Shown here: positions 21,949-39,723 of the stretch, piece by piece
Layout of the letters: each line of letters opens with the position of its first letter
Position numbering within the stretch: the stretch's first letter is position 1
Source of the DNA: a virus
Direction: 5' to 3' (one strand)
Virus record (IMG/VR): IMGVR_UViG_3300023180_000126
Coordinates: 1 to 42,487 of that record
Length of the DNA stretch: 42,487 bases
Notes under the pieces: generated by a model
What the model was told of the DNA's origin: nothing
What the model saw: the letters and a program-made list of their open reading frames with translations, nothing else
The model's database searches: none
Translations under genes and position numbers: made by a program

Positions 21949-22194
21949 ATGATTGATTTCACACACGAGGACATCGAACGTTTATGGAACTCCATATCAC
22001 ACTATGTGCCTGAAAGATCCAGACTGGACGCGGCCATCGACTTCATCAAGAGCCTGGACGACATAGGCGTGGAGCACGACGAGATAAAGGCGTCTGGGGA
22101 GTTTGATCCCAAACTGGAAGAAGCGATCAACACGGTGTTCGAGGAAGAGGAAGACCTAGACGAATCATACGACGACGGCTACAGCGAGGACTAA
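21949..22194 (+). CDS. Small acidic protein between uvsX and uvsY
   Basis: An 81-residue protein whose ATG directly follows the uvsX stop. Helical N-terminus (DFTHEDIERLWNSISHYV, RSRLDAAIDFIKSLDDIG) and a highly acidic C-terminus (FEEEEDLDESYDDGYSED). I recall the same gene at this place in cyanophages, always annotated as hypothetical. The acidic tail could mimic DNA or contact gp32/UvsX, but nothing in the sequence proves this. Its stop shares a base with the uvsY ATG. Confidence 0.7.
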   Translation: MIDFTHEDIERLWNSISHYVPERSRLDAAIDFIKSLDDIGVEHDEIKASGEFDPKLEEAINTVFEEEEDLDESYDDGYSED

Positions 22195-22655
22195 TGATCA
22201 ACTGGTACAGTGAAGTAAGCAGGAGTTTGGCGAAGATACCTGATTGCGTGGCGTACTTTGACAAGGAACTGCTGGAGGCCAGGAAGCAGTGCAAGATATA
22301 CGGCAACCTAGAACGAGCATCCGCGTCCTTACCCGGAATAGTGGAGGAGAGATTCAGCCAACTACAGCAGTTGGAGGCCATACTGGAATACCTAAACATA
22401 GAACTGAGAAGGCTGAGATCAAAGACATTCAGAAAGTTCCTGGAGAACTACAACAGGGCACTTTCAAGCAGAGACGCTGAGAAATATGTAGACGGTGAGG
22501 ACGATGTAGTCGACCTGACCAAGATAGTGAACGACTTCGCACTGCTGAGAAACCAATGGCTGGGCATCACCAAAGGACTGGATCAGAAACAATGGCAGAT
22601 AACCAACATTGTGAAACTGAGGGTGGCAGGAATGGAAGATGCCGACATCAAATAA
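22194..22655 (+). CDS. uvsY: Recombination mediator UvsY
   Basis: Loads UvsX onto gp32-covered single-stranded DNA. The 153-residue protein is all helical, like T4 UvsY (137). ASASLPGIVEERFSQLQQLE, IELRRLRSKTFRKFLENYN and ALSSRDAEKYVDGEDDVVDL are the segments I know from UvsY of marine T4-like phages, and the C-terminal helix carrying QITNIVKLRVAGMEDADI corresponds to the heptamerisation end. Position after uvsX supports the call. Overlaps the HAD gene by 17 bases. Confidence 0.85.
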   Translation: MINWYSEVSRSLAKIPDCVAYFDKELLEARKQCKIYGNLERASASLPGIVEERFSQLQQLEAILEYLNIELRRLRSKTFRKFLENYNRALSSRDAEKYVDGEDDVVDLTKIVNDFALLRNQWLGITKGLDQKQWQITNIVKLRVAGMEDADIK

Positions 22656-23268
22656 CAGAATAATACTAACAGATGTAGACGGTGTGTTGCTAGAATGGGA
22701 ACACCATTTCACCAAATGGGTGTTACAGAAATCATATTTTGACGAGCACGGCAATCGATACTATCCACACAAACTACTGCCCAAAAAACAGAAAACATAT
22801 GAGATGGCGGAAAGGTTTGGAGTTACCAAAGATGAGATTAGAAAACTTATACGGGAGTTCAACAGGAGCGCCTGGATGGGTACACAGAGACCCATGTTGG
22901 GATCACAGACCTGGGTCAAGTTGTTGTCCGCGGAGGGATGGACATTCATACCCATAACATCACAGACATCAGACATACCAGCACAGCAGTTGCGTAAGAG
23001 GAGACTGGGAGAACTGTTTGGGGACCACGTGTTCACAAATTACCACATACTGGGCACGGGCGCTGACAAGGATTCAGCATTATCCGAATTCCACGATACT
23101 GGGCTGTATTGGGTCGAGGACAAGCCAAACAACGCTGTAGCCGGGCTCAAATACGGTTTAAAGCCCATATTAATAGACCACCCATACAACAGAGACTTCG
23201 AACACCCGGACGTCATACGTGTAAATAATTGGCAGGAAATACACAAATTACTATCAGGAAGATCATGA
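22639..23268 (+). CDS. HAD-like phosphatase/hydrolase
   Basis: A 209-residue HAD-superfamily protein. Motif I is LTDVDGVLLEW (10-20), with D12 as nucleophile and D14 as acid/base. PITSQTSD (near 115-122) is the motif II region and LYWVEDKPNN, with its ED pair, is motif IV for magnesium. The cap region (residues 30-100) is helical. It overlaps uvsY and the next glycosyltransferase (ATGA), so it bridges the recombination operon and the glycan island. The substrate could be a nucleotide, a sugar phosphate or a polynucleotide 3'-phosphate; no motif decides this. Confidence 0.75.
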   Translation: MPTSNNRIILTDVDGVLLEWEHHFTKWVLQKSYFDEHGNRYYPHKLLPKKQKTYEMAERFGVTKDEIRKLIREFNRSAWMGTQRPMLGSQTWVKLLSAEGWTFIPITSQTSDIPAQQLRKRRLGELFGDHVFTNYHILGTGADKDSALSEFHDTGLYWVEDKPNNAVAGLKYGLKPILIDHPYNRDFEHPDVIRVNNWQEIHKLLSGRS

Positions 23269-23942
23269 AAGTTTACGTAGGTTGGGACAGCAGGGAGGAC
23301 ATAGCATACCAAGTGTGTGAGCACTCGATCAAGCGTAGGGATCCTAACGCAGAAGTACATCCATTAAAACAGAACGAGATGCGACAACAAGGCATCTACA
23401 CCAGAGACGTGGACAAACTGGCATCAACTGAATTCACGTTCACTAGATTTTTCGTACCTTACCTGAACAATTTCAAAGGCTGGGCGGTATTCTGTGACTG
23501 CGATTTCGTGTGGAAAGTGCCCGCGAAAGAACTGGAACAGTACTGCGATGACTCCAAGGCGGTTGTGTGCGTACAACACGATTACACACCAGAGGATGGA
23601 TCCATCAAGATGGACGGACAGATACAGACAGCATATCCCAGGAAGAACTGGAGTAGCATGGTGCTATGGAACTGTGCCCACGAGAAGAACAAGATACTGA
23701 CACCTGAATTCCTGAACAAGCAGACACCAAAGTTCCTACACAGGTTCTCATGGTTGGAAGATTCAGAGATAGGATCCTTGCCACACGCTTACAACTGGCT
23801 TGTGGGTTGGTACAAGGAACCCAAAGACGGCAAACCTAAGATACTCCACTATACCGAGGGAGGTCCTTGGTTCGATGGCTACCGAGATTGTGAGTATGCT
23901 GACGACTGGAAAAAAGAAGTAATCAATTTGTTCTCAGCATAA
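23265..23942 (+). CDS. GT-A-fold glycosyltransferase (GT8-like)
   Basis: A 225-residue protein. VYVGWDSREDIAYQVCEHSI (3-22) is the nucleotide-sugar-binding start, STEFTFTRFFVPYL (54-67) matches the 'SxxxFRFLIPxL' signature of GT8-like enzymes, and CDCDF (77-81) carries the metal-binding DxD (D78, D80). ILHYTEGGPWF near the C-terminus gives the second-metal histidine typical of the fold. I use ATG 23265, overlapping the HAD stop as ATGA; an upstream in-frame start lies inside the HAD gene and adds no homologous text. First transferase of the glycan island. Confidence 0.82.
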   Translation: MKVYVGWDSREDIAYQVCEHSIKRRDPNAEVHPLKQNEMRQQGIYTRDVDKLASTEFTFTRFFVPYLNNFKGWAVFCDCDFVWKVPAKELEQYCDDSKAVVCVQHDYTPEDGSIKMDGQIQTAYPRKNWSSMVLWNCAHEKNKILTPEFLNKQTPKFLHRFSWLEDSEIGSLPHAYNWLVGWYKEPKDGKPKILHYTEGGPWFDGYRDCEYADDWKKEVINLFSA

Positions 23943-24370
23943 TGAACTGGGAGAAACTCAAAACCAATCATTATTTTAAAGATCCCGTGGAACACATATA
24001 TGCTTCGATCTTGTACGATATGAAAGAGTATGATAAACTTTATGAAAATCAGAACAACCTAAATCATCACGTTTGGCAGGAGTTTGATCAGAAATATAAA
24101 ACAGGTTTTGAATTTATAAACGACATCGGAGAAATCAATACCAACAAGTCAGTCATATGTGTATGGTTTTTCAAGGACAGGAATGATAGGAGCAGTGGTG
24201 AGGACATAGTGCTAAATGGGAAAAAAATAAAGTATCAGCCAAACACTTTTTTGATAACTCAATCAACAGATATAAAAATTCTAGATAAAAAAGACAAGTA
24301 TATCAGAAGACCTTTGCTCCAGCTCGATCTAAAAATAGAAGTGTGGAATCAAATATTAGAAAGATTTTAG
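23942..24370 (+). CDS. Unknown protein, end of the plus-strand uvsX-glycan operon
   Basis: A 142-residue protein, not recognised. The N-terminal half is helical (IYASILYDMKEYDKLY, NHHVWQEFDQKY) and the second half strand-rich (SVICVWFFKDRND, IVLNGKKIKYQPNTFLITQS). The Y-x-P-N-x-F/L motif followed by a strand and R-R-P-L-L-Q resembles the end of 2-oxoglutarate/Fe(II)-oxygenase or cupin folds, but the expected HxD/H metal ligands are not evident. Its ATG shares a base with the preceding stop. It ends tail-to-tail with the FkbM gene with a 4-base stop overlap. Confidence 0.55.
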   Translation: MNWEKLKTNHYFKDPVEHIYASILYDMKEYDKLYENQNNLNHHVWQEFDQKYKTGFEFINDIGEINTNKSVICVWFFKDRNDRSSGEDIVLNGKKIKYQPNTFLITQSTDIKILDKKDKYIRRPLLQLDLKIEVWNQILERF

Positions 24371-24972
24371 TAATATATCTTATCCACTTGATTTGTTCCG
24401 TTGTGACTATCGATAATTTTATTGTTTCTAAATCCTAGATCTAACATATAATTGTCCATCTCGTACTCATTAGGTATTTGTGGAAATTCCTTATCCTTGT
24501 ATAAATTCACTTCCTGTATGATGTATTTTGCACGTTTGAATATACCGGGAGCACCTTTCATTATCATAATTTCTGCACCCTGTACATCCTGTTTGATTAG
24601 ATCAAATGTGGCATCCTGGCCAACCAATTCGTCTAAAGTCTGCATCTGTCGTATTTCGTAATCTTTGAATATACCAAATATAGTAGATCCTTTAGTGTAC
24701 GTAATTTTTTTCTTATTACCTTTGTCAATTTCTCTAAGGTACATTTTGACCTCTTTATTTGAATCTCCCAACACCGCTATATGATAGTCGGGGGTTATCT
24801 GTTTAAGGGATTTTTCATGTTTGTGTCCCGCTTCGATACAAGTATATTCTGCTTCAGGCCAGATGCTTTTAACATTTTTTGTCCAGAAACCGTTCCATGC
24901 TCCAATATCTAATATCTTTTTAGGAGTAAAGTTTTGTTTTTCTTTCAGCTCTCGTAGATAATCGTACATCAT
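24367..24972 (-). CDS. FkbM-family methyltransferase (1)
   Basis: A 201-residue AdoMet-dependent methyltransferase. KILDIGAWNGFW (19-30) is motif I, YTCIEAGHKHEKSL motif II, and FDLIKQDVQGAEIMIMKG (123-140) is the diagnostic FkbM motif (L-K-x-D-V-x-G-x-E). FkbM enzymes O-methylate sugars or polyketides, which fits the surrounding glycosyltransferases. Start ATGATG; its first bases overlap the end of the second FkbM gene by four. Last gene of the minus-strand operon. It looks AT-rich compared with the phage core genes. Confidence 0.85.
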   Translation of the reverse strand: MMYDYLRELKEKQNFTPKKILDIGAWNGFWTKNVKSIWPEAEYTCIEAGHKHEKSLKQITPDYHIAVLGDSNKEVKMYLREIDKGNKKKITYTKGSTIFGIFKDYEIRQMQTLDELVGQDATFDLIKQDVQGAEIMIMKGAPGIFKRAKYIIQEVNLYKDKEFPQIPNEYEMDNYMLDLGFRNNKIIDSHNGTNQVDKIYY

Positions 24973-25610
24973 ACTTTATAATAAACTATGTCAGGCCACG
25001 TCTTGATCAGAATCTTATATCCCAGATCTTTTAGATGTTTTTCTATCTCTAGATTACTACTACCATATCTTTTACTGTTGTTGTTAAGTTCGATCATAAT
25101 ATATTTGATTTTTTCAAGTTGATGTGATGCACCTTTGAGAACTTCCATCTCTAGACCTTCTACATCTACTTTGAGCAGATCTATGTCTTGAATATTTAGA
25201 GAATCCATTTTTGAGATTTTCGTCTCTCCTTTTTCTAATAAAACTCTTGTATTCTGTGTCGAGGATTCTTGTGATAGAGAGATGTAGCCGTCCTCATTTC
25301 CTATCGCTTGGTTATAAATGCGTATGTGACCGTAGGGTGCTACATTACGTTGGAGACATTCATAATGCGTCTTGTTTGGTTCAAAGCAGTAGATATTTTT
25401 GGCATATTGTTGCATAGTAATAGCCCATGTGCCGCACCAGGCACCTACATCCACTATCATATTAAATTTTTTATTTTGCAACTGACACCATTTCTCAAAC
25501 TGTTTTAAACAAGTGTCCTGCATATGAGGATGACCTTTTTCTCGCCATTTCTCTATCTGTGCATCCGTCGACGGAACCCATAACCCATCCTTTAGTTTCT
25601 CTATCTTCAT
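24969..25610 (-). CDS. FkbM-family methyltransferase (2)
   Basis: A 213-residue protein paralogous to the next gene in the operon. MIVDVGAWCGTW (51-62) is motif I, IYCFEPNKTHYECL motif II and LLKVDVEGLEMEVLKG (145-160) the FkbM motif. A ~45-residue N-terminal extension (WVPSTDAQIEKWREKG) is unlike the first enzyme, so the two probably methylate different positions or sugars. Overlaps both neighbours by four bases, so translation is coupled. Confidence 0.87.
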   Translation of the reverse strand: MKIEKLKDGLWVPSTDAQIEKWREKGHPHMQDTCLKQFEKWCQLQNKKFNMIVDVGAWCGTWAITMQQYAKNIYCFEPNKTHYECLQRNVAPYGHIRIYNQAIGNEDGYISLSQESSTQNTRVLLEKGETKISKMDSLNIQDIDLLKVDVEGLEMEVLKGASHQLEKIKYIMIELNNNSKRYGSSNLEIEKHLKDLGYKILIKTWPDIVYYKV

Positions 25611-26419
25611 AATATTCCCTTGTCCATCAATGTTTCTACGGCTGTACCATTCTCAAATTCCTCCGGCGTGAACTGTTGATAGGCCAGACTGTATAGCCAT
25701 GGCTCCGGACCACCATAGTAGGGATTTTCAATATCTGACAACTCGATTCCCGCAACTGCCGTCGCGAAACTCTTCTCATGACAGAATACAGGAACACCTT
25801 CACAAATGGCCTCTACCGCCGCTATGCTACAACTTGTGACAACGCACCAGGCATCCTTGAGGTCCTCGGATAGGGGTACCTTGGCCTCGCTTGGTCCTGA
25901 TGTACCCCTGCCCCTAGGCTTGTGTCGAAGTCGGATGGGTCTGTCTGTGTATCTCTTGATCTGTTCTATCGTGTCATTGGTCCATGTTGGTTGATCTATG
26001 TATGAGTTAATTCCCGCCGAGCTCGGGCACACCAACACGTACTTGCCGGCGAACGATGGCGCTTTTATCTTGATGCCAAACTTCTCAAATCTATCAGGCT
26101 TACAGTCCTTGATGTATGGAACGTGTATGGAATTCTTACAGATGCGCCAGTAGTGGTTGTCTGGCTTTAGATTGCTGTTGTCAAATCTTCCAAAGTATGG
26201 AGTGTCAGTGAACCAGTACTGATGGTTGCGGGCTTCTAACTTTTTAACCATCTCCCTGTTGTTGCCAACGAATCCCCAGAACATGCTGTTGCTGACAGGA
26301 TCATTTTCTTTTGAATTGTCTAATTTGGTTATCTGATCAGGCCATGATTTCTCCACCCCTGCGAACACCTCCCACGCCTTACTGTTCTTGTTACTGAATG
26401 GTGCGTAGATCGTTAGCAT
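25607..26419 (-). CDS. KpsC/GT-B-like glycan transferase, paralogue A
   Basis: A 270-residue member of a four-copy family in this window. The shared C-terminal half has YTDRPIRLRHKPRG (157-170), WCVVTSCSIAAVEA (191-204), EGVPVF (207-212), a DIENP motif (229-233) and WLYSLAYQQFTPEEFENG. This layout (R-x-K/H-P, then S-x-x-x-x-E-A, then G-x-P-V) is that of capsule-polysaccharide KpsC/KpsS-like GT-B enzymes, where the second Rossmann half binds the nucleotide sugar. It is short for GT-B, and the N-terminal half is only weakly Rossmann-like. Overlaps the SGNH gene by 29 bases and FkbM-2 by four. Family assignment is by motif layout. Confidence 0.6.
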   Translation of the reverse strand: MLTIYAPFSNKNSKAWEVFAGVEKSWPDQITKLDNSKENDPVSNSMFWGFVGNNREMVKKLEARNHQYWFTDTPYFGRFDNSNLKPDNHYWRICKNSIHVPYIKDCKPDRFEKFGIKIKAPSFAGKYVLVCPSSAGINSYIDQPTWTNDTIEQIKRYTDRPIRLRHKPRGRGTSGPSEAKVPLSEDLKDAWCVVTSCSIAAVEAICEGVPVFCHEKSFATAVAGIELSDIENPYYGGPEPWLYSLAYQQFTPEEFENGTAVETLMDKGIL

Positions 26420-27059
26420 CTATAAAATCCTTTAGTTGTTCTGTCCACAAAATGTGTCCTTCGTACGAAGGATGTGGATCGTTTGGACTCACTATGTGTT
26501 TGTTCCCTATGATGAAATCATAATGACTGGTGTTAAATTTAAAAAAACGATCTTTGTTGATCGATGATTCCACTGTTCGTAGATCCTTGTTGAGTGAAGT
26601 CATTGAGTTAGGCAGACTGTTGTACATCACGTAAGGTATGCTTTTTAACTCAAAGAAATTTTGTAGATCTAAAACATGGTCAAGGAATCTCATCTCGCCC
26701 TGTTGATCCACGTCCCATCCAGGTTGTCCAGAAATGAATCTTAGGTTGTCTGCCGTTTTCCATGTTCTCCATGTGGAATCCATGTTGACTATTCGGCCCT
26801 TCTTCCACCCGTCGTTGGTCATGTAGTCATGTCTGTGTGTGCTAGACCAACCTATCACTGCGAATACATCTTTTGTACTGTTCTGTTGGAACCATAACTT
26901 CGTCGTGAAACTGATACGGTCATTGCCCCTGCCACCCATGGCGAGATTACACAACTCCATTTTGTATTGTTCTGCTAAAATTTTGGTCGTGAATGTGTCT
27001 ACCCCGTCTTTTGGCCGGGACACAAGGAAACTGCATCCATTGGAAAATAATCGCATCAT
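26391..27059 (-). CDS. SGNH/GDSL-like hydrolase or acyl-ester enzyme
   Basis: A 222-residue protein from the ATGATG at 27059/27056. SGNH blocks are visible: block I FSNGCSFL with S10, block II NLAMGGRGNDRIS with G and N residues, block III FAVIGWSS and block V DPHPSYEGHILW with the catalytic D-x-x-H pair replaced in the common phage form DPHPS. Such proteins esterify or de-esterify sugars and lipids; next to glycosyltransferases a sugar acetyl-esterase or transferase role is plausible. The open frame runs up to 27281, but that part overlaps the divergent gene and lacks homologous text. First gene of the minus-strand glycan operon. Confidence 0.7.
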   Translation of the reverse strand: MMRLFSNGCSFLVSRPKDGVDTFTTKILAEQYKMELCNLAMGGRGNDRISFTTKLWFQQNSTKDVFAVIGWSSTHRHDYMTNDGWKKGRIVNMDSTWRTWKTADNLRFISGQPGWDVDQQGEMRFLDHVLDLQNFFELKSIPYVMYNSLPNSMTSLNKDLRTVESSINKDRFFKFNTSHYDFIIGNKHIVSPNDPHPSYEGHILWTEQLKDFIDANDLRTIQ

Positions 27060-27071
27060 AGTGTATTTTAC

Positions 27072-27100
27072 AGTATAATTATTCGTATGCCAACGGTTAA
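27072..27100. promoter_or_regulatory. Overlapping divergent promoters of the two glycan operons
   Basis: Plus strand: TATAAT at 27074-27079, seven bases before ATG 27087; its -35 region is poor. Minus strand: TATACT at 27077-27072 with TTAACC (27100-27095, four of six) 17 bases upstream, twelve bases before ATG 27059. The two -10 boxes share four bases, so RNA polymerase can fire in only one direction at a time. Confidence 0.5.
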
Positions 27101-28169
27101 GAATATCGATTCTTTGAAATATTTCCTCAATCGATTTCCCACAATCGACAGTGGGTATGAATACTCGGTCAATTACCATGAGAACGTGGATCCAAACTTC
27201 AAATCGTTGCCCACTTTCATGGCAGAATTCTTTGACTGTAAAGTACACAGTTGCCCGCTGTTGTTGACCAATGAGGATCATTTAATAACCAATCACGTAT
27301 GGAACCTCACGCACAAGAGCAGAAACAAACCAGGTAAAACTCATGGTCTATGGAAGGAATGGGGGGACCATGTGGAGATCGACCTACCTCCCGTGGCCAG
27401 GCAGTTCAACGAGACCTACACCTACGTGTGGTTGCCCATAGACGAGGACAGCGCCAACAACCCATGGCACATATGGATGGACGTGATATCCAAGTTCCGA
27501 CTGATCGAGAAGAGGTGGTCCACCAACTTCGCCAAGTACGTGTTTGTGCTTTCGAACCCCAGCAATTATTTTGACAGGGTGGCAAAGGAGTTCTTCTCAG
27601 AAATGAAGTACATGGTGATGCCAAAGAACGAGACCTGGCAGTTCAAACACCTAATCGTCCCCAGCCTCAGCAATCACAACGACGGAGTGACCACACCACA
27701 TCTGGCACCGTGGCTCAGGGTGATGAAGAACATACTGAAGGTCGGATCCGATAGGAAGAGAAAGATCTTTGTGTCACGTGAGGACGCCAAGACCAGGAAG
27801 CTGGTAAACGCTGAAAAATTATTGATAGCTCTCAAAGGATGGGAGACCGTGACCTTAGAAAATTTATCAATCAAAGAACAGGTTAGATGTTTCTCTGAAG
27901 CATCTCACGTGGTGTCAACACACGGTGCGGGACTGACCAACCTGCTCTGGTGTGAGCCTGGGACGAAGGTCATCGAGATACAGGACCCGAACATGATAAA
28001 AAAGAAGGTGTATCCCGTGTTGTCTTACCAACTGGGACTTGATCACGAGCTGTACCTCGCAAAGACCATACCCATAAAGACACAGGGAGAAAAACCAAAA
28101 GGTGTGAAGAGATTCAACGATCTCATCAATTTTGAAGTGGATGTGGCCGATTTGATTAGACATCTGTAA
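27087..28169 (+). CDS. GT61 (DUF563) family glycosyltransferase
   Basis: A 360-residue protein. The C-terminal half has the family signatures: KIFVSREDAKTRKLVN (226-241), LEN-LSIKEQVRCFSEASHVV (257-276), HGAGLTNLLW (279-288) and PGTKVIEI (291-298). GT61 enzymes are GT-B-like transferases that add xylose, arabinose, GlcNAc or related sugars; the donor here is unknown. The N-terminal half includes a WLPIDEDSANNPWHIW segment (115-130), the acceptor side. It is the first plus-strand gene from the divergent promoter and is followed by a separate promoter for the next operon. Confidence 0.87.
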   Translation: MPTVKNIDSLKYFLNRFPTIDSGYEYSVNYHENVDPNFKSLPTFMAEFFDCKVHSCPLLLTNEDHLITNHVWNLTHKSRNKPGKTHGLWKEWGDHVEIDLPPVARQFNETYTYVWLPIDEDSANNPWHIWMDVISKFRLIEKRWSTNFAKYVFVLSNPSNYFDRVAKEFFSEMKYMVMPKNETWQFKHLIVPSLSNHNDGVTTPHLAPWLRVMKNILKVGSDRKRKIFVSREDAKTRKLVNAEKLLIALKGWETVTLENLSIKEQVRCFSEASHVVSTHGAGLTNLLWCEPGTKVIEIQDPNMIKKKVYPVLSYQLGLDHELYLAKTIPIKTQGEKPKGVKRFNDLINFEVDVADLIRHL

Positions 28170-28185
28170 GGGAATATTATATAAT
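28157..28185 (+). promoter_or_regulatory. Host-type promoter for the six-gene glycan operon
   Basis: TAGACA (28157-28162, five of six), 17-base spacer, perfect TATAAT (28180-28185). The ATG at 28194 follows eight bases later with no Shine-Dalgarno, so a leaderless start is predicted. It lies over the end of the GT61 gene. Confidence 0.65.
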
Positions 28186-28193
28186 ACAGAGTC

Positions 28194-29009
28194 ATGATTT
28201 ATCTAAGTCAAACACACAGAGAGGTTACAGAGAAATACATCAGATTCGCTAACCAAGGTATACCAGGTTCAAAGATTTTACCTTACAAAGATATTCTAAA
28301 CATTAAAGAAGCAGAGGGAATCTGGTTGTTTGGCATACTACGTGGCACAGATCTGGTGTACAAACATTGTGAGAAAAATAAAATAAATTTCTATTATATG
28401 GATAGACCTTATTGGGGATTGTCTAGAGAACATCCTTATTTTTTGAGAATAGTCAAAAACGGACATGTTAAAAACACCATCGAAGATAGGCCCGATGACA
28501 GATTCAAAAGCACATTCCCACACGAGATAATGCCCTATCATAAAAACGGAAAAAAAGTGTTAGTGTGTCCACCCACGAACGCAATCTGTGATTTCTTTAA
28601 TTGTAGGGATTGGTTAGACAATACATTAAAAATATTGAAGGAGAACACCGATCGTGAGATAATTGTACGAGAGAAACCTTACAACCCAGAAACATACAAA
28701 GACGAGAACGGAACTCTACGCACAGGCGAGAACACATCACAGCAGTCAAAAGAAAAAATCGACTGGCGTGAAATACATGCCGTGGTCACGTACAACAGTT
28801 CTATAACGATAAAAGCATTGTCCAGTGGTGTTCCGGTGTTCACAGACAGCAATAATTGTGCTTTCCCTATCGCAGGAAAAAACTTCGCAGACATAGAAAA
28901 TCCAGAATATCATGACCCCAGACCTTTGTTCCACAGTCTTGCATATGGACAATTCAACAAAGAAGAAATGAGAAATGGCTACGCATGGAGTAAGTTGAAT
29001 GGACGTTGA
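28194..29009 (+). CDS. KpsC/GT-B-like glycan transferase, paralogue B
   Basis: A 271-residue paralogue, closest to paralogue A. Shared features: FYYMDRPYWG (67-76) against WFTDTPYFG in A; NTDREIIVREKPYN (151-164); HAVVTYNSSITIKALSSGVPVF (195-216); and ADIENPEYHDPRPLFHSLAYGQF in the 232-254 region. It opens a six-gene operon in which every gene overlaps the next by 4-11 bases. Reaction and sugar are unknown; the family layout suggests transfer of a sugar to a growing glycan. Confidence 0.6.
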   Translation: MIYLSQTHREVTEKYIRFANQGIPGSKILPYKDILNIKEAEGIWLFGILRGTDLVYKHCEKNKINFYYMDRPYWGLSREHPYFLRIVKNGHVKNTIEDRPDDRFKSTFPHEIMPYHKNGKKVLVCPPTNAICDFFNCRDWLDNTLKILKENTDREIIVREKPYNPETYKDENGTLRTGENTSQQSKEKIDWREIHAVVTYNSSITIKALSSGVPVFTDSNNCAFPIAGKNFADIENPEYHDPRPLFHSLAYGQFNKEEMRNGYAWSKLNGR

Positions 29010-29982
29010 AATATTTAGAAGGACCGTGAAGGATCGTAAGCGTGGTGCAAGTTGGCAGTTGCTTCAGCACATGGCGGAAGGAATAAAGGCATGCGGTGAT
29101 AACCCTATCGTAGTAAACGAACACAAGGAAGGTCCATGGACGGACAACGAAATGGAACCAACTGCTCCAATAGGTTGCATGTTTGGTTATGGCGGGAAGA
29201 ATCAACCACATCACACCAAAGGACGTAGGAGAGATCTAGTCGAACGTGCAAAGAAAAAAGGCATTTACATAATCACATTCGATGGAGGAATATTATCTAG
29301 TTTTGGAAATACTATTACACATCCTAAACACCACTGGCGTGTCAGCCTTTATTCACCCATGAATAACGGAGATTTCTTGAGTGACAACAGTCCTGACGAC
29401 AGATGGAACATGATGATGGACCTATGGAATATAAAACACGAGCCATGGCGCAAGTCAAATCAAAATGATCCTATTCTGTTTGGCTTACAGCCAAAAGACA
29501 ACTGGAGCATGGACGAGCTTGATCCTATTGAGTGGTTCAACAATGTGTATGAAAAAATAAGACCTGCTACTGATCGTAGATTCCTAATACGTCCACACCC
29601 CAATCACATGGCACAGATGATAAAAAGGAAAAACGAGTTCCCCGAAGACTGCGAATTGTTGGAAGGCCCTACACACTTCGTGGGCGATGAGAAAAAGTAC
29701 TACAGATTCAACTTCCAGGAGGCATTGAGTAACTGTCATGCTTTTGTTACTCATAATTCTACGGCCAGTGTTGACTCCTGTGTTCGTGGAATCCCCACCT
29801 TTGTTACCTCAGATCTTGCACTCTGTTGGCCAGTGGCAAACAAAGACCTAAACAAAATAGAAACACCCGAGTATCCGGATAGAACACAATGGGTACATGA
29901 TATAGGTTACAAGATGTGGAGTACGGACGAGATAAGAAGCGGTATTGTTTTTAAAAGATTCAAAGAGAAGTTAGGACTATGA
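28999..29982 (+). CDS. KpsC/GT-B-like glycan transferase, paralogue C
   Basis: A 327-residue paralogue, the longest. It has a fuller N-terminal Rossmann-like half (GASWQLLQHMAEGIKACG, IGCMFGYGGKNQ, GIYIITFDGG), then TDRRFLIRPHPNHM, HAFVTHNSTASVDSCVRGIPTF and NKIETPEYPDRTQWVHDIGYKM. The R-P-H-P form of the arginine motif is closer to classic KpsC/KpsS proteins than A and B are. It overlaps paralogue B by 11 bases and the sulfotransferase by four. Confidence 0.62.
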   Translation: MDVEIFRRTVKDRKRGASWQLLQHMAEGIKACGDNPIVVNEHKEGPWTDNEMEPTAPIGCMFGYGGKNQPHHTKGRRRDLVERAKKKGIYIITFDGGILSSFGNTITHPKHHWRVSLYSPMNNGDFLSDNSPDDRWNMMMDLWNIKHEPWRKSNQNDPILFGLQPKDNWSMDELDPIEWFNNVYEKIRPATDRRFLIRPHPNHMAQMIKRKNEFPEDCELLEGPTHFVGDEKKYYRFNFQEALSNCHAFVTHNSTASVDSCVRGIPTFVTSDLALCWPVANKDLNKIETPEYPDRTQWVHDIGYKMWSTDEIRSGIVFKRFKEKLGL

Positions 29983-30755
29983 TACACAGAAGAGTCAATG
30001 TACTACAAAACCAGTATGATACTATACCAAATCTTATCCTAAGTTTTCCACGTTGTGGTCGTACTTGGATGAAGCACTTATTTGGTCATTATATCGCCAA
30101 GAAGTACAATGTAGAATTTAGTAAATGGGTGGATAGGCCAAGATCGGGAATACCTAGAATATTGTTCAGACATGACTGGATGAGTACAACAGGGCATATA
30201 CCATGGCAAGAATATTTTCAGATACAAGATAAATGTAGATTCATATTCAGTAAAGAAATGACAAAACAAAACATAATATATCTTTTCAGAGATCCCCTCG
30301 ATGTGTTGTTCAGTTATTGGCCATACCTACAGAGTATACCTTACAAGAACTTTACTCCACCGGAACATACCGATATAATCGATTTCGCACACAACAAACA
30401 ATGGGGTTTTGATATTGTAATTAATTTTATGAACGCACAGTTGGATCATTATGAACAACATCAAAATAAAAAATTAAAAGTGAGGTATGAAGATCTCAAA
30501 AAACAAGATTCGGAATGGCAAAAATTAATAGAATTCATATTTGGTCATTACGACTATCAAGCGTATGAACATGCCAAGTCCCAGACAACATTCTCAAAAA
30601 TGCAAGAGAAAAACAACAAAGATCTTCCCGATAATCTGAAGTTCTATAGAAAAGGGGGATCAAATTACATAAAAGAATTGTCAGCGGAACAACAGGACAT
30701 TTTATTAAACTGGCCCGGCTACAAGGATTTAAATAGACGCATACATGAAGATTAA
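29979..30755 (+). CDS. PAPS-dependent sulfotransferase
   Basis: A 258-residue enzyme of the cytosolic sulfotransferase type. SFPRCGRTWMK (22-32) is the 5'-phosphosulfate-binding loop (usual YPKSGTTW), IYLFRDPLDVLFSYW (100-114) is the 3'-phosphate-binding segment with R104 and S112, KVRYEDL (167-173) is the conserved strand, and YRKGGSNYIKEL (223-234) matches the C-terminal RKGxxGDWK loop. The loop lysine of the PSB motif is replaced (R-C-G-R), though R may substitute. It sits inside a glycosyltransferase operon, so the likely acceptor is a sugar hydroxyl, giving a sulfated glycan; PAPS would come from the host. AT-rich compared with the core genes. Confidence 0.88.
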   Translation: MIHRRVNVLQNQYDTIPNLILSFPRCGRTWMKHLFGHYIAKKYNVEFSKWVDRPRSGIPRILFRHDWMSTTGHIPWQEYFQIQDKCRFIFSKEMTKQNIIYLFRDPLDVLFSYWPYLQSIPYKNFTPPEHTDIIDFAHNKQWGFDIVINFMNAQLDHYEQHQNKKLKVRYEDLKKQDSEWQKLIEFIFGHYDYQAYEHAKSQTTFSKMQEKNNKDLPDNLKFYRKGGSNYIKELSAEQQDILLNWPGYKDLNRRIHED

Positions 30756-31647
30756 GGTAATCACATCATACAAACCTGGCTGTTGGGAACAGTACGGCAA
30801 GAAGGGCATTGAGTCAATGGCCGAACAGTTTCCGCCAGAAGTGGACATAGTTGTGTATGCTGAAGAACCAAAGCCTGACTGTAAATACGGTCGTATCCAA
30901 TGGATAGACCTCAACACGGCCGAGCCAGAACTTTTTAAATTCAAGAACAAACACAAAGATGATCCGGTCGCTAACGGAGAACTCCAAGAGATACCGGGTG
31001 GTGTGAGAAGACCCGCCGAATTACAAACCAAGGGCGGTGCCGACAAGAATAAAGGATCATTCCTATGGGCGGCTGTGAGATTCGCCAACAAAGTTTTCTG
31101 TGTGGTCAATGCTGTAAGGAACTCGAAGGACTATGACTACGTGGTGTGGATAGACGGTGACACTTTCACTTTCAGGTCCGTGCCGATGGATTTCTTTGAG
31201 AAACTACTGCCTAAGGAGACCATGTTGACCTATCTTGGTAGGGAGAATCCAAACCTACACGATGGTGGCAAGTATCCCGAATGCGGTTTCGTGGGATATA
31301 ACATGCGACACCCTGAAATACAGAATTTCGTAAACGATTGGGAAAAACTCTATATAACAGATGATGTCTTCAAACTCCTGGAGTGGCACGACAGTTACGT
31401 GTTCTGGCACCTGTCAAAGATTTATAGGAAAGAAAGAGGCATAACAGTCAATGATATAGGATACTGGAAAGGGGTCAAAGGTCATCATGTGTTCGTCAAC
31501 AGTGAACTGGGACTTTACATGGATCACCTCAAAGGAAAAAGGAAGAAGTTAGGCACATCCGCCAAAAATGATTTACGTGTCAACTCCAATACTTCTACAG
31601 ACATCAGGTCCATCGATTACTGGAAGAAAGCGCCGCCCACGATATGA
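30745..31647 (+). CDS. GT-A-fold glycosyltransferase
   Basis: A 300-residue protein. VITSYKPGCWEQYGKKGIES (5-24) begins the nucleotide-binding fold and VVWIDGDTFTF (133-143) carries the DxD motif (D137, D139). YLGRENPNLHDGGKYPECGFVGYN follows in two parts and contains the acceptor loop, and EWHDSYVF near 212 supplies a D/E residue often acting as base. Overlaps the sulfotransferase by 11 bases. A TTTAAATA octamer nine bases before the ATG could give separate late expression. The sugar donor is unknown. Confidence 0.8.
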   Translation: MKIKVITSYKPGCWEQYGKKGIESMAEQFPPEVDIVVYAEEPKPDCKYGRIQWIDLNTAEPELFKFKNKHKDDPVANGELQEIPGGVRRPAELQTKGGADKNKGSFLWAAVRFANKVFCVVNAVRNSKDYDYVVWIDGDTFTFRSVPMDFFEKLLPKETMLTYLGRENPNLHDGGKYPECGFVGYNMRHPEIQNFVNDWEKLYITDDVFKLLEWHDSYVFWHLSKIYRKERGITVNDIGYWKGVKGHHVFVNSELGLYMDHLKGKRKKLGTSAKNDLRVNSNTSTDIRSIDYWKKAPPTI

Positions 31648-32516
31648 GACTAGAAGTTTGGACAGAATACGGGCCATTGAATTCAAAACCCATCTTTGAT
31701 GCTTTCATAAAAAGTTTGGAAGATGCTGGTGAGACTGTATATCTAAACAAGTCTGCCAACGCTGACGTGGCCGTGATATGGAGTGTGTTATGGCGAGGCA
31801 GGATGGAACAGTATCAGAAGATCTGGAGAGAATATAGGGGCAGTGGTCGACCGGTCATAGTCATAGAAGTCGGGGGACTGAGAAGGAACCAAAGTTTTAA
31901 AATTGGCATCAACGGTATCAACAGAGATGCTGATTTCGCCAATCAAGAGTATGACGACAAGAGATGGCCACTCTTCAAACACGAGCTACAGCCTTGGAAC
32001 CCTACAGGTGATATCATTGTGATATGTGGACAACACGATGCTTCTGAACAATGGAAGGGACTTCCTAGAATGGAAAATTGGATTGTTCAACAAATCACAG
32101 AAATAAGGAAGTATACAACGAGACCAATATTGGTCAGGCCACATCCTAGGAATCAGATATCATTTGATCCCGGTAAATTTGACAATGTCAAAATCAGAAT
32201 GCCCAAAAGAGATTACAGGACATACGATGATACAGATTTCAAAAAAACTTTAAAAAGGACATGGGCCGTGGTCAATCACAGTTCCAACCCGGCCATGGAG
32301 GCGGTCATAAAAGGTATTCCTGTTTTCGTTTCTGAATCCAGTTTGTGTCATGATGTGGGTAACATCAAACTTATTGACATCAACACACCTGCCATGCCTA
32401 ACAGAATCAATTGGGCAAATCAATTGGCATACACCGAATGGTTCAAGGACGAGATAGAGGCGGGCTTGCCATGGGGGAGAATCAAAAAAAGACTCGAAGA
32501 GAAATATATCAAATGA
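31644..32516 (+). CDS. KpsC/GT-B-like glycan transferase, paralogue D
   Basis: A 290-residue paralogue. The N-terminal half reads VWTEYGPLNSKPIFDAFIKS and DVAVIWSVLWRGRMEQY, a Rossmann-like start; RPVIVIEVGG and IVICGQHD follow. The shared C-terminal set is TTRPILVRPHPRN, WAVVNHSSNPAMEAVIKGIPVF, KLIDINTPAMPNRINWANQLAY and EIEAGLPWGRIKKRL. It begins with an ATGA overlap and ends with another, so it is translated with its neighbours. The family now has four members with roughly the same ends but different N-termini, as expected if each recognises a different acceptor. Confidence 0.62.
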   Translation: MRLEVWTEYGPLNSKPIFDAFIKSLEDAGETVYLNKSANADVAVIWSVLWRGRMEQYQKIWREYRGSGRPVIVIEVGGLRRNQSFKIGINGINRDADFANQEYDDKRWPLFKHELQPWNPTGDIIVICGQHDASEQWKGLPRMENWIVQQITEIRKYTTRPILVRPHPRNQISFDPGKFDNVKIRMPKRDYRTYDDTDFKKTLKRTWAVVNHSSNPAMEAVIKGIPVFVSESSLCHDVGNIKLIDINTPAMPNRINWANQLAYTEWFKDEIEAGLPWGRIKKRLEEKYIK

Positions 32517-33280
32517 AAGTAATAAACATAGGACAGAGGAATGTCATAGAACCTATAGAATGGAAACCATACACCGGCGAAACTATTATTGTAAAGACAA
32601 TACTGCGACAAGGCAAGAAGATACAAGAGACTGCCTACTACGAAGACAAAGTTAAAGCAGTGCCACGTGGTAATGCCTATTGTATAGGAAATGGACCTTC
32701 CAGAAAAGGATTTGATCTGAACAAACTGAAGTCAACAGGGCAAACTTATGGCTGTAATGCTTTGTATAGAGATTTCATACCAGACTTCATATTTTCGGTC
32801 GATACAAAGATTACCGTGAAGATGTGCGAAGACGAAGTGGGGCTAAAGACTGTTCACTATGCACCATCATTGGAAGTGAATAGGAAACAGAACAAGGGCA
32901 TGTTACATCTGATTCCCTATAATCCTCACTGGATTTCAGGTAACGCCGCATTCTGGACAGCGGGAATACATGGACACAAAAATATATATCTGCTAGGGTA
33001 TGACTTCCGAGAGTACGGCGCGGGGCAGTTGAATAACATCTACCAAGACACCGAGTGTTATGGTGAGAGGAATAACGATGCTATCTTTGAGGGGTGGTTA
33101 AAAACTTTCAGGGACATGTTGAAGATGAGACCATATGTGAATTACACATTGGTGCATGATAATCCCCCAAGTTTCCTACATAATCTACAGACAGGAACGG
33201 ACATGGGCAACAGTAGAATAATCAGTTATAAGGAATTTAACGATACAGTCTTAAACCAGCACTCTCAAACTTCTGTCTAA
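32513..33280 (+). CDS. GT42/DUF115-like protein of phage glycan clusters
   Basis: A 255-residue protein from ATG 32513 (ATGA overlap). AYCIGNGPSRKGFDLNKL (55-72) is the nucleotide-binding start found in sialyltransferases of family GT42 and in DUF115/Maf-like proteins; YGCNALYRDFIPDFIFSVD (79-97) follows in the same order as those families. WISGNAAFWTAGIHGHKNIYLLGYD is split over ~145-169, and the D in GYDF may bind the donor. Both sugar transfer and nucleotide-sugar handling are possible. Last gene of the plus-strand glycan operon; its 3' end overlaps the convergent SprT gene by 44 bases. Confidence 0.6.
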   Translation: MKVINIGQRNVIEPIEWKPYTGETIIVKTILRQGKKIQETAYYEDKVKAVPRGNAYCIGNGPSRKGFDLNKLKSTGQTYGCNALYRDFIPDFIFSVDTKITVKMCEDEVGLKTVHYAPSLEVNRKQNKGMLHLIPYNPHWISGNAAFWTAGIHGHKNIYLLGYDFREYGAGQLNNIYQDTECYGERNNDAIFEGWLKTFRDMLKMRPYVNYTLVHDNPPSFLHNLQTGTDMGNSRIISYKEFNDTVLNQHSQTSV

Positions 33281-33701
33281 AAGCATAGAAGTTTTTATTG
33301 TGATTAGAGAACGGATCTTTCAACACAGTCATCTGGTATAGGTGCACCATCTCGTGTGCTAAGGTCTCTATGAAATCTTTCCAGGTTGGAAACTTTTCGT
33401 GCAGTTGTATGTAGTAATCCACAGGTACGTGGTGTGGTATCTTGCGTTGATCAAACTTGCCCTTAGGTGTTTTCCTATTGTCCCAGTTGGCCACGCATCT
33501 GCCCCAATCTCCCACTAGGCGCTTCACTTCAATGTGAACCCTGCCCAGTCTAGAGCCAAATAGCATGACATTCAGTTTGGAAAACCAGTGTGCGGCTACC
33601 ATAGATGTAGGTCTATACCCTCGCACATTACCACTCATAGCAAGTTTATTTTCAAATTGTCTCTTGAGCTGTTTCTTTTTGCTGTGTGCCTTCTTTTCCA
33701 T
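33237..33701 (-). CDS. SprT-like zinc metalloprotease
   Basis: A 154-residue protein with the zinc-protease motif HEMVH (116-120) in LAHEMVHLYQ and a preceding helix KDFIETL. After it comes NKNFYAFRQKFESAG, typical of SprT-type domains (H-x-x-x-F-x-x-x). The N-terminus is lysine-rich (KKAHSKKKQLKRQ), suggesting DNA contact. SprT-like proteins cut proteins crosslinked to DNA, which would fit its place next to UvsW. A third zinc ligand could be the histidine in SNHNKNF. Start ATG 33701; an in-frame extension to 33719 overlaps the divergent promoter. Confidence 0.8.
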   Translation of the reverse strand: MEKKAHSKKKQLKRQFENKLAMSGNVRGYRPTSMVAAHWFSKLNVMLFGSRLGRVHIEVKRLVGDWGRCVANWDNRKTPKGKFDQRKIPHHVPVDYYIQLHEKFPTWKDFIETLAHEMVHLYQMTVLKDPFSNHNKNFYAFRQKFESAGLRLYR

Positions 33702-33703
33702 GG

Positions 33704-33731
33704 TTGACCTTATTACCAATTATGTTATAAT
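33704..33731 (+). promoter_or_regulatory. Host-type promoter for the 447-residue gene and uvsW
   Basis: TTGACC (33704-33709, five of six), 16-base spacer, perfect TATAAT (33726-33731). The ATG at 33756 follows after 24 bases, so this promoter leaves a short real leader, unlike most others here. No strong SD is present. Confidence 0.6.
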
Positions 33732-33755: not shown

Positions 33756-35099
33756 ATGGACAAAATACGCACAGATTTGCCAAAAACAATTAACGAAGCA
33801 CTTAAAATACTAGCATATAATGATTATTTCTGGCCAGATCATCGTACGGGTCACATCAACCCGCACCCCAAGGACAAGGAGACCGTGAGATCACTAGCGG
33901 AATCACAGTACGCATGGACAGAAAAACAGGCCAAACTGGCCTTGGTCATACTCAAGAGATACCTCACCAAGTTCCAAGCACATCAGATAGACATTAAGCC
34001 CTTACTGGACAATCCAGTGTATGAGGACGACTTTAGAGTAATAAGTTTTGACAAAAGCATTGAAAAATACACAGACGATGATGGTACGGAAAAGATAGAG
34101 TTAAAATTTCCTTACAACAAGAAGATAATACAACTAATACGTTGCCTCAAGGATAAAAGAGACCTCCCTGGTATGTACGCACAGTATGACGGTGAATCTA
34201 AGAAATGGACTATGTTACACACAGATGTCACAGCATACTATCTAACTCTTATCGCTGTAAGGTACGACTTCAAATTTATCACTCCCCAATTACTTGATGA
34301 TTACGACAAGATAAAAAAGGAAGTTGTAGGACATCGACAGCCATCTGCTAGGTTATCAGGAGAAGAGATAATACTAGATCATGCGCACGAATCTCTTAAA
34401 GAATACTGGAGAGATAATGTCAAAAACAAACCATTACTACAACAGGTCGACTCGTTGAAAAATTTTGGCATCACCACAAAGGGTATCGTTGTGCCTGCTA
34501 GATCAAAATTGGCTAGTCGCATCGCCCATCATCAATATCATAAACTCTGGATTAATTCGACCAATTTTACCAAGACCGAAGTTGTACAGGCACTAATCGA
34601 TCTGGATGCGTTTCCTTTGCTGATACCTTGTCATAGCGATGTACACGAGGAACAGGAGATACAGGAATTTTGGAGTTGGATGAAGACATTCGAGGAGCAC
34701 GGCATAGACATGTTGAAACAATGTTCGTGGGGGTTTGACCTTAAGGAACCTGTGTATAGAAAAGAAAGAAGGGGTTTCAGTCCTCGCACAAATGTGATAG
34801 ATGATAAAAAACCCAGAGAGTTCTTCGAGAACTTGTACGAACTTCATCAAATGAGCAAACAGTTCAAATTCATAGACGAAAATACCAAAATTATATTTGT
34901 TCGTAACAGAATACCACGTGCATTAATTAGGAGCAAGGTAAAACCACAGGCTTCATTAATAGCATTGGGTGGTGGTTATTACGCCACAGGCACGGACAAT
35001 CTCAAAAGACTGCTTGAAAATCTTCCAAAAAAGTTGTATTATAGTGATCACCAACCAAGTAGTTGGGATTGGCATGATCACGTGATAGAACAAATATAG
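33756..35099 (+). CDS. Unknown 447-residue protein paired with UvsW, possible inactive helicase-like partner
   Basis: Not recognised. Residues ~50-75 (WTEKQAKLALVILKRYL) form a charged helix. The stretch 113-160 reads KIELKFPYNKKIIQLIRCL, then YDGESKKWTML, close in style to the HARP-like recognition domain in front of SNF2-type helicases (F-x-Y-x-x-x-I ... YD-x-x-K-x-W). The C-terminal half contains TKIIFVRNRIPRALI and LIALGGGYYATG but has no Walker A, no DExx box and no arginine-finger motif. It could be a substrate-binding subunit or degenerate helicase paralogue that works with UvsW, whose ATG begins one base after this stop. All of this beyond the coupling is inference. Confidence 0.6.
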   Translation: MDKIRTDLPKTINEALKILAYNDYFWPDHRTGHINPHPKDKETVRSLAESQYAWTEKQAKLALVILKRYLTKFQAHQIDIKPLLDNPVYEDDFRVISFDKSIEKYTDDDGTEKIELKFPYNKKIIQLIRCLKDKRDLPGMYAQYDGESKKWTMLHTDVTAYYLTLIAVRYDFKFITPQLLDDYDKIKKEVVGHRQPSARLSGEEIILDHAHESLKEYWRDNVKNKPLLQQVDSLKNFGITTKGIVVPARSKLASRIAHHQYHKLWINSTNFTKTEVVQALIDLDAFPLLIPCHSDVHEEQEIQEFWSWMKTFEEHGIDMLKQCSWGFDLKEPVYRKERRGFSPRTNVIDDKKPREFFENLYELHQMSKQFKFIDENTKIIFVRNRIPRALIRSKVKPQASLIALGGGYYATGTDNLKRLLENLPKKLYYSDHQPSSWDWHDHVIEQI

Positions 35100-38374: not shown

Positions 38375-38600
38375 GATTGATCTAGAGATAGCGGACAATT
38401 TGGATTTCGAAGACGGGGACTGTGCGGTGGTAATCAAAGAAGACGGATCAATAGGAAGGGTGATTATGCCAGACATCAACAGGAATGTTCTTGATTCAGA
38501 AGGATACAGGAAACTGTTAGACGTACTAGAAGTTTTACAGCCGGGATCACGTGACAAGATGATACAACATGCTGAAAAAGGCAAAGGGAGTATGCACTAA
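38367..38600 (+). CDS. Small acidic protein with TTG start
   Basis: A 77-residue protein. The only start that covers the frame is TTG 38367, supported by an excellent Shine-Dalgarno AGGGAGG (38354-38360) six bases upstream, one of the few in this region. It overlaps the zinc-finger gene end. CAVVIKEDGSIGRVIMPDI is a strand pair and SEGYRKLLDVLEVLQP a helix. Its stop shares a base with the next ATG, coupling it to the polymerase-like gene. Function unknown; it may be a chaperone or partner of that protein. Confidence 0.65.
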   Translation: MSKIDLEIADNLDFEDGDCAVVIKEDGSIGRVIMPDINRNVLDSEGYRKLLDVLEVLQPGSRDKMIQHAEKGKGSMH

Positions 38601-39190
38601 TGCCTGATGTAGATATAGACTTCTTCGACAGGGACGGGGTGCTGAAACTTTTCAAACACACACCGGCATCGATGATCAAAGATGGCAAGACCGAAAAACA
38701 CAAGACGGGAGTTTACTTCCATGCTGTTCCTGAACACCCAGTGACTGGAAACTCATCGTTAGATTACAAGAAGGCCGAGGACAGAGGATATTTCAAGATA
38801 GACATGTTGAACGTGAACATATACAAAGAAGTCAAGTCAGAGCAGGAACTGGTAGAACTAATGATACAGGAGCCAGATTGGGACATGCTGAAGGATCCAA
38901 AGACCGTGGAGAACCTTTTCCACCTAAATGGACACTTCAATATAGTGTCAAAGTTAGAGCCAAAGAATATCGAACAACTGGCCGCAGTGTTGGCCATAAT
39001 ACGTCCCGCCAAGAGGCAGTTGATGTACAAAGACTGGCAGGACATAATGAAGGAAGTGTGGACTAGACCCACAGACGGCTCATACTTCTTCAAGAAGTCA
39101 CACGCTATAGCCTATGCACAGGCCATAGTGGTACAGATGAATCTCATTACGAGAGCTAAATATAGTTTTGATGCTACATCAAAAACCTAA
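38600..39190 (+). CDS. Miniature DNA polymerase III alpha (C-family) palm-like protein
   Basis: A 196-residue protein that can be aligned by eye to scattered blocks of the ~1160-residue DnaE. MPDVDIDF (1-8) matches the DnaE motif MPDFDVDF, with D5 and D7 as the metal-binding pair. EKHKTGVYFHA (32-42) matches the GKHAGGVVIA block. RGYFKIDMLNV (62-72) matches the GLVKFDFLGL block, keeping the third aspartate (D68). VENLFHLNG...LEPKNIEQLAAVLAIIRPAK (103-138) matches the fingers segment before LFRPGP, and FFKKSHAIAYA (163-173) matches GFNKSHSAAYA. The PHP, most fingers, beta-binding and OB domains are absent. It may be a tiny polymerase, nucleotidyltransferase or decoy. Coupled to the TTG-started gene. 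Confidence 0.7.
   Translation: MPDVDIDFFDRDGVLKLFKHTPASMIKDGKTEKHKTGVYFHAVPEHPVTGNSSLDYKKAEDRGYFKIDMLNVNIYKEVKSEQELVELMIQEPDWDMLKDPKTVENLFHLNGHFNIVSKLEPKNIEQLAAVLAIIRPAKRQLMYKDWQDIMKEVWTRPTDGSYFFKKSHAIAYAQAIVVQMNLITRAKYSFDATSKT
39155..39162 (+). promoter_or_regulatory. Late-promoter-like octamer before the 51-residue gene
   Basis: GCTAAATA lies eight bases (TAGTTTTG) before the ATG at 39171, inside the end of the polymerase-like gene. Confidence 0.5.
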
Positions 39191-39705: not shown

Positions 39706-39723
39706 TATAAATACTGTTAAATA
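39706..39723 (+). promoter_or_regulatory. Tandem late promoters, including the perfect T4 consensus TATAAATA
   Basis: TATAAATA (39706-39713) is identical to the T4 late consensus and is the best match in the window. A second octamer, GTTAAATA (39716-39723), lies six bases (TGTACT) before the ATG at 39730. The first would give a leader of about ten bases, the second a leaderless mRNA. Confidence 0.7.

Follow-up and report, generated by a model that had tools for sequence, protein, structure and literature searches.

A polymorphic glycan-gene island of a marine T4-like jumbo phage as a possible Kdo-based pathway for modifying host lipopolysaccharide

The window analyzed here is a linear virus record of 42,487 bases (IMG/VR record IMGVR_UViG_3300023180_000126) from a large, uncultured marine T4-like jumbo phage; it is a fragment of the genome, so the absence of a gene from it tells little about the genome as a whole. 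Between the recombination genes uvsY and uvsW lies an island of fourteen genes (g01 to g14, positions 22639-33280; Table 1), and all fourteen open reading frames (ORFs) proposed in an initial annotation were confirmed. The island behaves like a capsule or lipo-oligosaccharide (LOS) locus: its flanks are fixed, its core of glycosyltransferases (GTs) is inherited vertically, and its decorating genes are exchanged. Its product, whatever the acceptor, is probably an oligosaccharide based on 3-deoxy-D-manno-oct-2-ulosonic acid (Kdo) or on another ulosonic acid activated by cytidine monophosphate (CMP). The favored reading, with a probability of roughly 0.4, is a polymorphic pathway for a Kdo-based, LOS-core-like oligosaccharide acting on the lipopolysaccharide (LPS) of the host.

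Donor, acceptor, product and benefit are what we infer from gene content, folds, motifs, position, gene swapping, selection and the kds genes of relatives. In the favored pathway, four KpsC-like GT-B enzymes, two GT-A enzymes, a GT61 enzyme and a GT42-like enzyme would assemble a short oligosaccharide. At least the RXHP-bearing g10 and g13, and probably g14, would take as donor an ulosonic acid activated by CMP, with CMP-Kdo as the likeliest; it would come from the host or, in relatives, be supplemented by phage KdsA/KdsB. Capping and variation of the oligosaccharide would fall to FkbM methyltransferases, an SGNH (de)acylase and a sulfotransferase dependent on 3'-phosphoadenosine 5'-phosphosulfate (PAPS), with an AsnB amidotransferase, a 2-oxoglutarate (2OG) oxygenase or an epimerase as alternative decorators in sister phages. 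Homologous recombination at the conserved uvsX/uvsY and uvsW flanks would swap the decorating genes. During infection the pathway would most likely act on the inner core of host LPS, where an altered phage receptor could lead to superinfection exclusion or to fewer progeny being lost on debris.

The fixed site and its changing content were seen by comparing relatives. About 240 IMG/VR loci were gathered by UvsW, UvsX, UvsY and sulfotransferase searches, overlapping pieces of one contig were joined, and the uvsY-uvsW interval was then read; the merged contig L073/L088/L185, in which two different records had been joined, was excluded. Genes in the relatives were called with a simple script, whose small ORFs are unreliable. 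In about 35 relatives, the stretch from uvsY to the gene for a 447-amino-acid (aa) protein beside uvsW is occupied by 7-22 kb in which glycan genes predominate, and the uvsY-uvsW interval as a whole ranges from 28 b (phage Paride) to 22.1 kb. A homologue of the 447-aa gene is the sole gene from uvsY to uvsW in five relatives (L131, L153, L154, L161 and L128), which thus represent the empty site and place the insertion between uvsY and the 447-aa gene. The island had been described as lying exactly between uvsY and uvsW, which needs correction, since a SprT-like gene and the 447-aa gene separate it from uvsW. The suggested comparison with relatives does show a replaceable cassette: site and flanks are conserved (UvsY is 93-100% identical in aa sequence in close relatives) and the content is replaced.

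Close relatives keep the gene order HAD - GTA1 - (g03) - (variable) - FkbM2 - GTB1 - SGNH - GT61 in the left half and (variable) - GTB2 - GTB3 - (sulfotransferase or AsnB) - GTA2 - GTB4 - GT42-like - SprT in the right half. The sulfotransferase and an asparagine-synthase-like (AsnB) amidotransferase occupy a common slot between GTB3 and GTA2; among non-duplicate close relatives, 10 carry the sulfotransferase only, 9 AsnB only, 1 both and about 10 neither. At the position of g04, about 20 islands carry a GT2-like gene and an NAD-dependent epimerase (v2, v1) instead, and further exchanged genes encode a 2OG-oxygenase, FkbM, radical-SAM proteins and a second sulfotransferase family. Only the core of GTA1, GTBs, GTA2 and GTB4 remains in most of the distant islands (UvsX 73-80%), and even most of the core GT set is lost from a few loci (G002, G005).

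The contrast between flanks and content is sharpest in the pair G019 and c007956. Their flanking proteins are nearly identical (UvsW 100%, UvsY 99%, 447-aa protein 97%, SprT 94%), whereas island proteins are far less so (g04 36%, g05 52%, g07 42%, g09 42%, g12 51%), and one island has the sulfotransferase where the other has AsnB. Across all pairs, the identity of g02, g06, g10 and g13 tracks that of UvsY (rho 0.76-0.86), whereas that of g04 and g07 does not (rho -0.07 and -0.02). Thus, the island combines a vertically inherited assembly core with decorating genes that are exchanged. Synonymous divergence is at or close to saturation (pS 0.7-0.9) at a median pN of 0.10-0.26, and dN/dS is 0.02-0.12 where computable; the island genes are under clear purifying selection and therefore functional rather than filler. 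Stuffer DNA that fills a headful genome, an explanation entertained for the LPS clusters of cyanophages (PMC3037559), would suit an interval that varies from 0 to 22 kb, yet with such selection and invariant catalytic motifs it is scarcely credible here. The genes behave as one unit and the enzymes of transfer, methylation and sulfation keep their motifs, in agreement with the initial annotation's view of a complete decoration pathway as opposed to scattered acquisitions.

The link to Kdo chemistry comes from the KpsC-like proteins. The products of g06, g09, g10 and g13 are mutually homologous (HHalign E 2e-19 to 6e-53) and form a single paralogous family. For the AlphaFold2 (AF2) model of g10, with a predicted local distance difference test (pLDDT) score of 88.9, the 15 top PDB entries are all Kdo transferases (Z 13.1-15.5 over 241-261 residues), including WbbB (Z 15.5), KpsC (Z 14.4) and KrkA (Z 13.5), and the next unrelated entry has Z 10.3. 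The g10 model has their two-domain GT-B fold, to which g06, g09 and g13 are connected through profile homology only. A PDB sequence search with the GTB3 (g10), GTA2 (g12) and g03 profiles gave nothing significant. The published signature of Kdo transferases is QXXXD, which holds the nucleophilic Asp, plus (K/R)XHP (PMC12887879). Both the Gln and the CMP-binding RXHP are invariant in g10 (44/44) and g13 (52/52), and judged by these motifs g10 and g13 likely use a CMP-ulosonate. Among viruses of other kinds, the giant algal virus Tetraselmis virus 1 appears in the BFVD matches with four or more proteins that have the KpsC-like fold of g10.

Phage genes for synthesis of the presumed donor are found in relatives. 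A kdsB gene overlapping that for GTB2 occurs in the islands of L275 (89% to the window in UvsW) and of L107, an independent viral contig, and the two KdsB proteins are 97% identical; their five top NCBIfam models are all CMP-Kdo synthetases, with one subfamily cut-off passed and the equivalog cut-offs missed. In G018 and on the 335-kb contig G038:C57, uvsW is followed 2-3 kb downstream by a KdsA-KdsB pair, G003 has a truncated KdsA, and Synechococcus phage S-SCSM2R carries a g02 homologue near KdsA/KdsB. Genes 262/263 of S-SCSM2R, which adjoin that homologue, were considered as GT-B relatives and rejected because they are not KpsC-like. For the NAD-dependent epimerase of sister islands, 21 members were found, and a search for the PF00483 nucleotidyltransferase in 37 relatives gave a single match. 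The earlier statement that sugar-nucleotide synthesis genes are missing thus holds for the 42,487-base fragment only, and its corollary, that donors must come from the host, fails for a lineage that encodes KdsB, KdsA-KdsB or an epimerase; PAPS, by contrast, does seem host-derived. Matches to APS kinase in phage contigs, examined as a sign of phage PAPS synthesis, were rejected as short and partial (about 90 positions) and probably generic P-loop proteins. The contig G038:C57 (L290; PBPT01000016.1, 335,231 b) is a large phage contig of the lineage and may be near complete; it, L275 (NZHE01000029.1) and L285 (PAOW01000003.1) are binned in metagenome-assembled genomes (MAGs) labeled Neomarinimicrobiota, Rickettsiales and Euryarchaeota. 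A second glycan module lies beside replication genes about 7 kb downstream of uvsW in G007 (L364:1233-4788). It encodes a 429-aa fusion of a cytidylyltransferase with an RraA-like domain, together with a radical-SAM protein, an FkbM methyltransferase and a protein that looks like GT42.

The remaining enzymes largely bear out the assignments first made. Pfam matches support two FkbM methyltransferases (g04 41.5 and g05 59.3 bits against the PF05050 cut-off of 22.7), GT61, the HAD phosphatase and the PAPS sulfotransferase (40.9 bits against 22 for Sulfotransfer_1). In this last protein, g11, the PAPS motifs SFPRCGRTW and the RxPxDVLFSYW region are conserved and PDB sulfotransferases match at E 1e-4; no g11 relatives were found in phage records, nor in genome contigs by single-sequence search. 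The two proposed GT-A enzymes, g02 and g12, have no Pfam match, and their assignment rests on DxD motifs that are invariant (39/39 and 56/56, respectively) and on the family match of g02. The profile matches of g14 are weak, to the GT42 sialyltransferase CstII at E 1e-3 over 30 residues and to MptE-like proteins at E 0.024, below the cut-off. The g07 start was corrected to 27059, giving 222 aa (relatives about 222-230 aa); its SGNH identity rests on the NGCSF motif (7/7) and a sub-threshold DUF6071 match. The protein left as unknown, g03, can be assigned: its AF2 model (pLDDT 88.8) matches OGFOD1/Tpa1 (Z 9.4), the HxD...H iron ligands are missing, with no conserved His among 21 sequences, and by its fold it is a shortened, degenerate prolyl-hydroxylase-like 2OG-oxygenase that has lost its iron ligands. 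A full-length 2OG-oxygenase with HxD..H occupies the g03 slot of L275 (8633-9430) and L107. The DVDGV motif of g01 is invariant (59/59), and g01 is missing from distant islands that retain the GT core; it is probably a backbone gene of nucleotide metabolism rather than a glycan gene.

No multi-transmembrane protein occurs in the core or decorating families, hence neither a flippase nor a polymerase, which fits the extension of a molecule already exported by the host. A product that is released as a small molecule or is a full polymer of the capsule kind (a secondary metabolite or exopolysaccharide) would fit the AsnB, radical-SAM and 2OG-oxygenase genes of sister islands, and secondary-metabolite clusters have been proposed for jumbo cyanophages (PMC7824862). 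Such a product is improbable, however, as neither an exporter nor a polymerase nor an initiating phosphoglycosyltransferase is among the island proteins. Modified bases of phage DNA, one of the acceptors suggested initially, are very unlikely. T4-like phages glucosylate their DNA and some islands contain 2OG-oxygenases, but the island enzymes are of LPS/capsule type and we know of no precedent for a many-sugar sulfated chain on DNA. In addition, no thymidylate synthase/dCMP-hydroxymethylase match occurs on the 335-kb G038:C57 or on 203- and 182-kb contigs, fragments that can miss it.

For the acceptor, the cellular relatives of g02, mostly alphaproteobacterial, point to LPS. WaaA adjoins them in six loci, and a Rhodobacteraceae MAG operon (L301:282-5068) reads WaaA - g02 homologue - KdsD - KdsA - KdsB, which suggests an unassigned role in the LPS inner core for the g02 GT-A family in bacteria. 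In single-cell genomes, whose gene order we read as SAR11-like, the arrangement is g02-GTB-..-g12-GTB. Because these relatives stand among LPS inner-core genes, Kdo-bearing LPS is the favored acceptor.

Points of both chemistry and gene context weigh against a Kdo oligosaccharide on host LPS. The overall GT-B fold, the Gln and (K/R)XHP are common to g10/g13 and to WbbB (GT99), KpsC (GT107) and KrkA (GT140), whereas none of the four island GT-Bs has the QXXXD nucleophile that known retaining Kdo transferases carry; g10 has QPKDN (Asp at +3) and g13 has QHDAS, with the Gln invariant and no Asp at +4. With the nucleophile not in place, these GT-Bs are not assigned to GT99, GT107 or GT140. Moreover, (K/R)XHP has been lost in g06 and g09, and, given the lost motifs, some of the GT-Bs may use other donors. 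The window itself has no kds genes, and the analyses made identified no acceptor, for which the chemistry of cellular relatives would in any case be no proof. In the Caulobacter phages CcrColossus and CcrBL9, a homologous cassette (GT42-like, two KpsC-like GTBs, g02-type GTA, methyltransferase and GT9) lies directly after large tail genes and before lysis genes, and in podovirus ctDrO704 homologous genes lie among capsid/stabilization genes. These contexts would fit virion modification at least as well.

It is possible that the same enzymes build a glycan on a virion protein (tail fiber, sheath or capsid), with g14 as a GT42/Maf-like enzyme starting on Ser/Thr, KpsC-like enzymes adding Kdo and the decorations varying the surface. 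Virion glycosylation by lytic phages is known experimentally, and all island enzymes are soluble. Maf flagellin transferases can place Kdo on Ser/Thr (PMC11339370). Set against the tail and capsid contexts just described are the occurrence of g02 relatives in LPS/Kdo operons, the failure to find an acceptor protein, and the place of the island in the window lineage, with recombination genes and not tail genes. The T4-type late-promoter motif is likewise not enriched (TATAAATA with one mismatch allowed, 41 matches against 37.6 expected, an uninformative count). Late expression of a cassette of the Caulobacter phage type would also suit a receptor change before lysis. A BFVD search matched a CcrColossus protein structurally to g10 (E 6e-13), and the literature on Caulobacter phage glycosylation yielded nothing usable. 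A more specific form is doubtful: that this marine jumbo phage lineage coats its own virions with an LOS-like, Kdo-based, sulfated and methylated glycan from a virus-encoded serotype-like locus, through a GT-B family that is related to known Kdo transferases and catalytically distinct from them. If true, the particle would mimic a bacterial surface.

Polymorphic glycan clusters are already known from jumbo and marine phages. What such clusters do in large marine phages has been a matter of guesswork for two decades and, to our knowledge, not of experiment. Jumbo cyanophages (P-SSM2, S-SSM7) and pelagimyophages carry LPS/capsule-modification clusters for which a change of the host surface has been proposed (PMC3037559, PMC7824862, PMC7029224). 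Like the island, these hold many GTs and sugar-modifying genes and are polymorphic between related phages, whereas they are inserted elsewhere (near hli03/phoH or the tail-fiber region) and, in the parts of the descriptions available, show no KpsC-like CMP-Kdo-type GT-Bs, sulfotransferase/AsnB slot or uvsY/uvsW flanks. The cluster of phage Mosig EXVC030M (MT647606.1, 124832-130666) unites two FkbM genes, homologues of the g12, g02, GTB2 and GTB1 types (GTs 28-45% identical) and a sulfotransferase in one run; it is smaller than the island, lies beside ribonucleotide reductase and ruvC genes in a different phage family, and its sulfotransferase has no detectable similarity to g11. The CcrColossus/CcrBL9 cassette resembles the island in the genes named above and differs in phage group, tail-lysis position and lack of a sulfotransferase. 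Gram-negative capsule/LOS loci (group 2 kps, Campylobacter LOS) have the same conserved flanks, exchanged middle, Kdo/CMP-ulosonate transferases and swapped decorations; unlike them, the island is phage-borne and without exporters. As far as checked, apparently new are the uvsY/uvsW site, its serotype-like division between core genes and exchanged ones, the slot shared by sulfate and amide, the connection between phage GT-Bs of KpsC type and CMP-Kdo synthesis encoded by phages, and the occurrence of small homologous cassettes in phages that are in culture. One marine phage glycan locus is thereby tied to CMP-Kdo chemistry, and its evolution is seen to resemble that of serotype loci in bacteria. 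The phage/alphaproteobacterial GT-B family, which has the CMP-binding motif and lacks the known nucleophile, bears on the evolution of retaining Kdo transferases. The cultured phages with smaller cassettes (Mosig EXVC030M on Pelagibacter HTCC1062, CcrColossus on Caulobacter) allow a direct chemical test of the acceptor.

The fourteen genes fall into three transcription blocks (g01-g03 forward, g07 to g04 reverse, g08-g14 forward). They mostly overlap, as first described, except that g07 and g08 are divergent and 24 nt separate g08 from g09.

Table 1. Genes of the island and its flanks (positions in the window)
Feature	Positions	Strand	Evidence or remark
uvsY, left flank, fixed	22194..22655	+	phrog_231 E 7e-15
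g01 HAD phosphatase, NT5C/phrog_420 family	22639..23268	+	PF06941 E 9e-6
g02 GT-A glycosyltransferase (GTA1), core	23265..23942	+	phrog_28018 E 1e-55; DxD
g03 degenerate 2OG-Fe(II) oxygenase fold (from model)	23942..24370	+	AF2 model, structural match
g04 FkbM methyltransferase, swapped slot	24367..24972	-	PF05050 E 2e-10
g05 FkbM methyltransferase, variable	24969..25610	-	PF05050 E 7e-16; TIGR01444 E 1e-25
g06 GT-B, KpsC-like paralogue 1 (GTB1), core	25607..26419	-	HHalign to g10 E 5e-26
g07 SGNH-type (DUF6071-like) hydrolase	26391..27059	-	DUF6071 E 2e-5 (below cut-off); NGCSF
g08 GT61 glycosyltransferase	27087..28169	+	PF04577 E 1e-23
g09 GT-B, KpsC-like paralogue 2 (GTB2)	28194..29009	+	profile homology to g10
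g10 GT-B, KpsC-like paralogue 3 (GTB3), core	28999..29982	+	AF2 model; RXHP
g11 PAPS sulfotransferase	29979..30755	+	PF00685 (Sulfotransfer_1) E 2e-10
g12 GT-A glycosyltransferase 2 (GTA2)	30745..31647	+	DxD; homologue in phage Mosig E 7e-31
g13 GT-B, KpsC-like paralogue 4 (GTB4), core	31644..32516	+	HHalign to g10 E 6e-53
g14 GT42/DUF115-like putative CMP-ulosonate transferase	32516..33280	+	weak profile matches
SprT-like metalloprotease, island right edge, non-glycan gene	33237..33719	-	PF10263 E 5e-7
447-aa backbone gene	33756..35099	+	sole uvsY-uvsW gene at empty sites
uvsW helicase, right flank, fixed	35101..36564	+	phrog_16 E 2e-77

A nucleotide search of window positions 17691-42487 against phage records gave no match. 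At the protein level, the nearest phage records to the terminase are T4-like jumbo phages of the PA5oct type (55%), and the nearest to UvsW is Phosso (54%). The T4-type late promoter TATAAATA occurs without mismatch only once in the window, at 39706-39713. Outside the island, positions 4820-8251 encode an unusually long tail sheath protein of 1143 aa (phrog_10581), and positions 38600-39190 a 196-aa protein that matches a DNA-polymerase family (phrog_11778), a similar short one being annotated in phage Paride.

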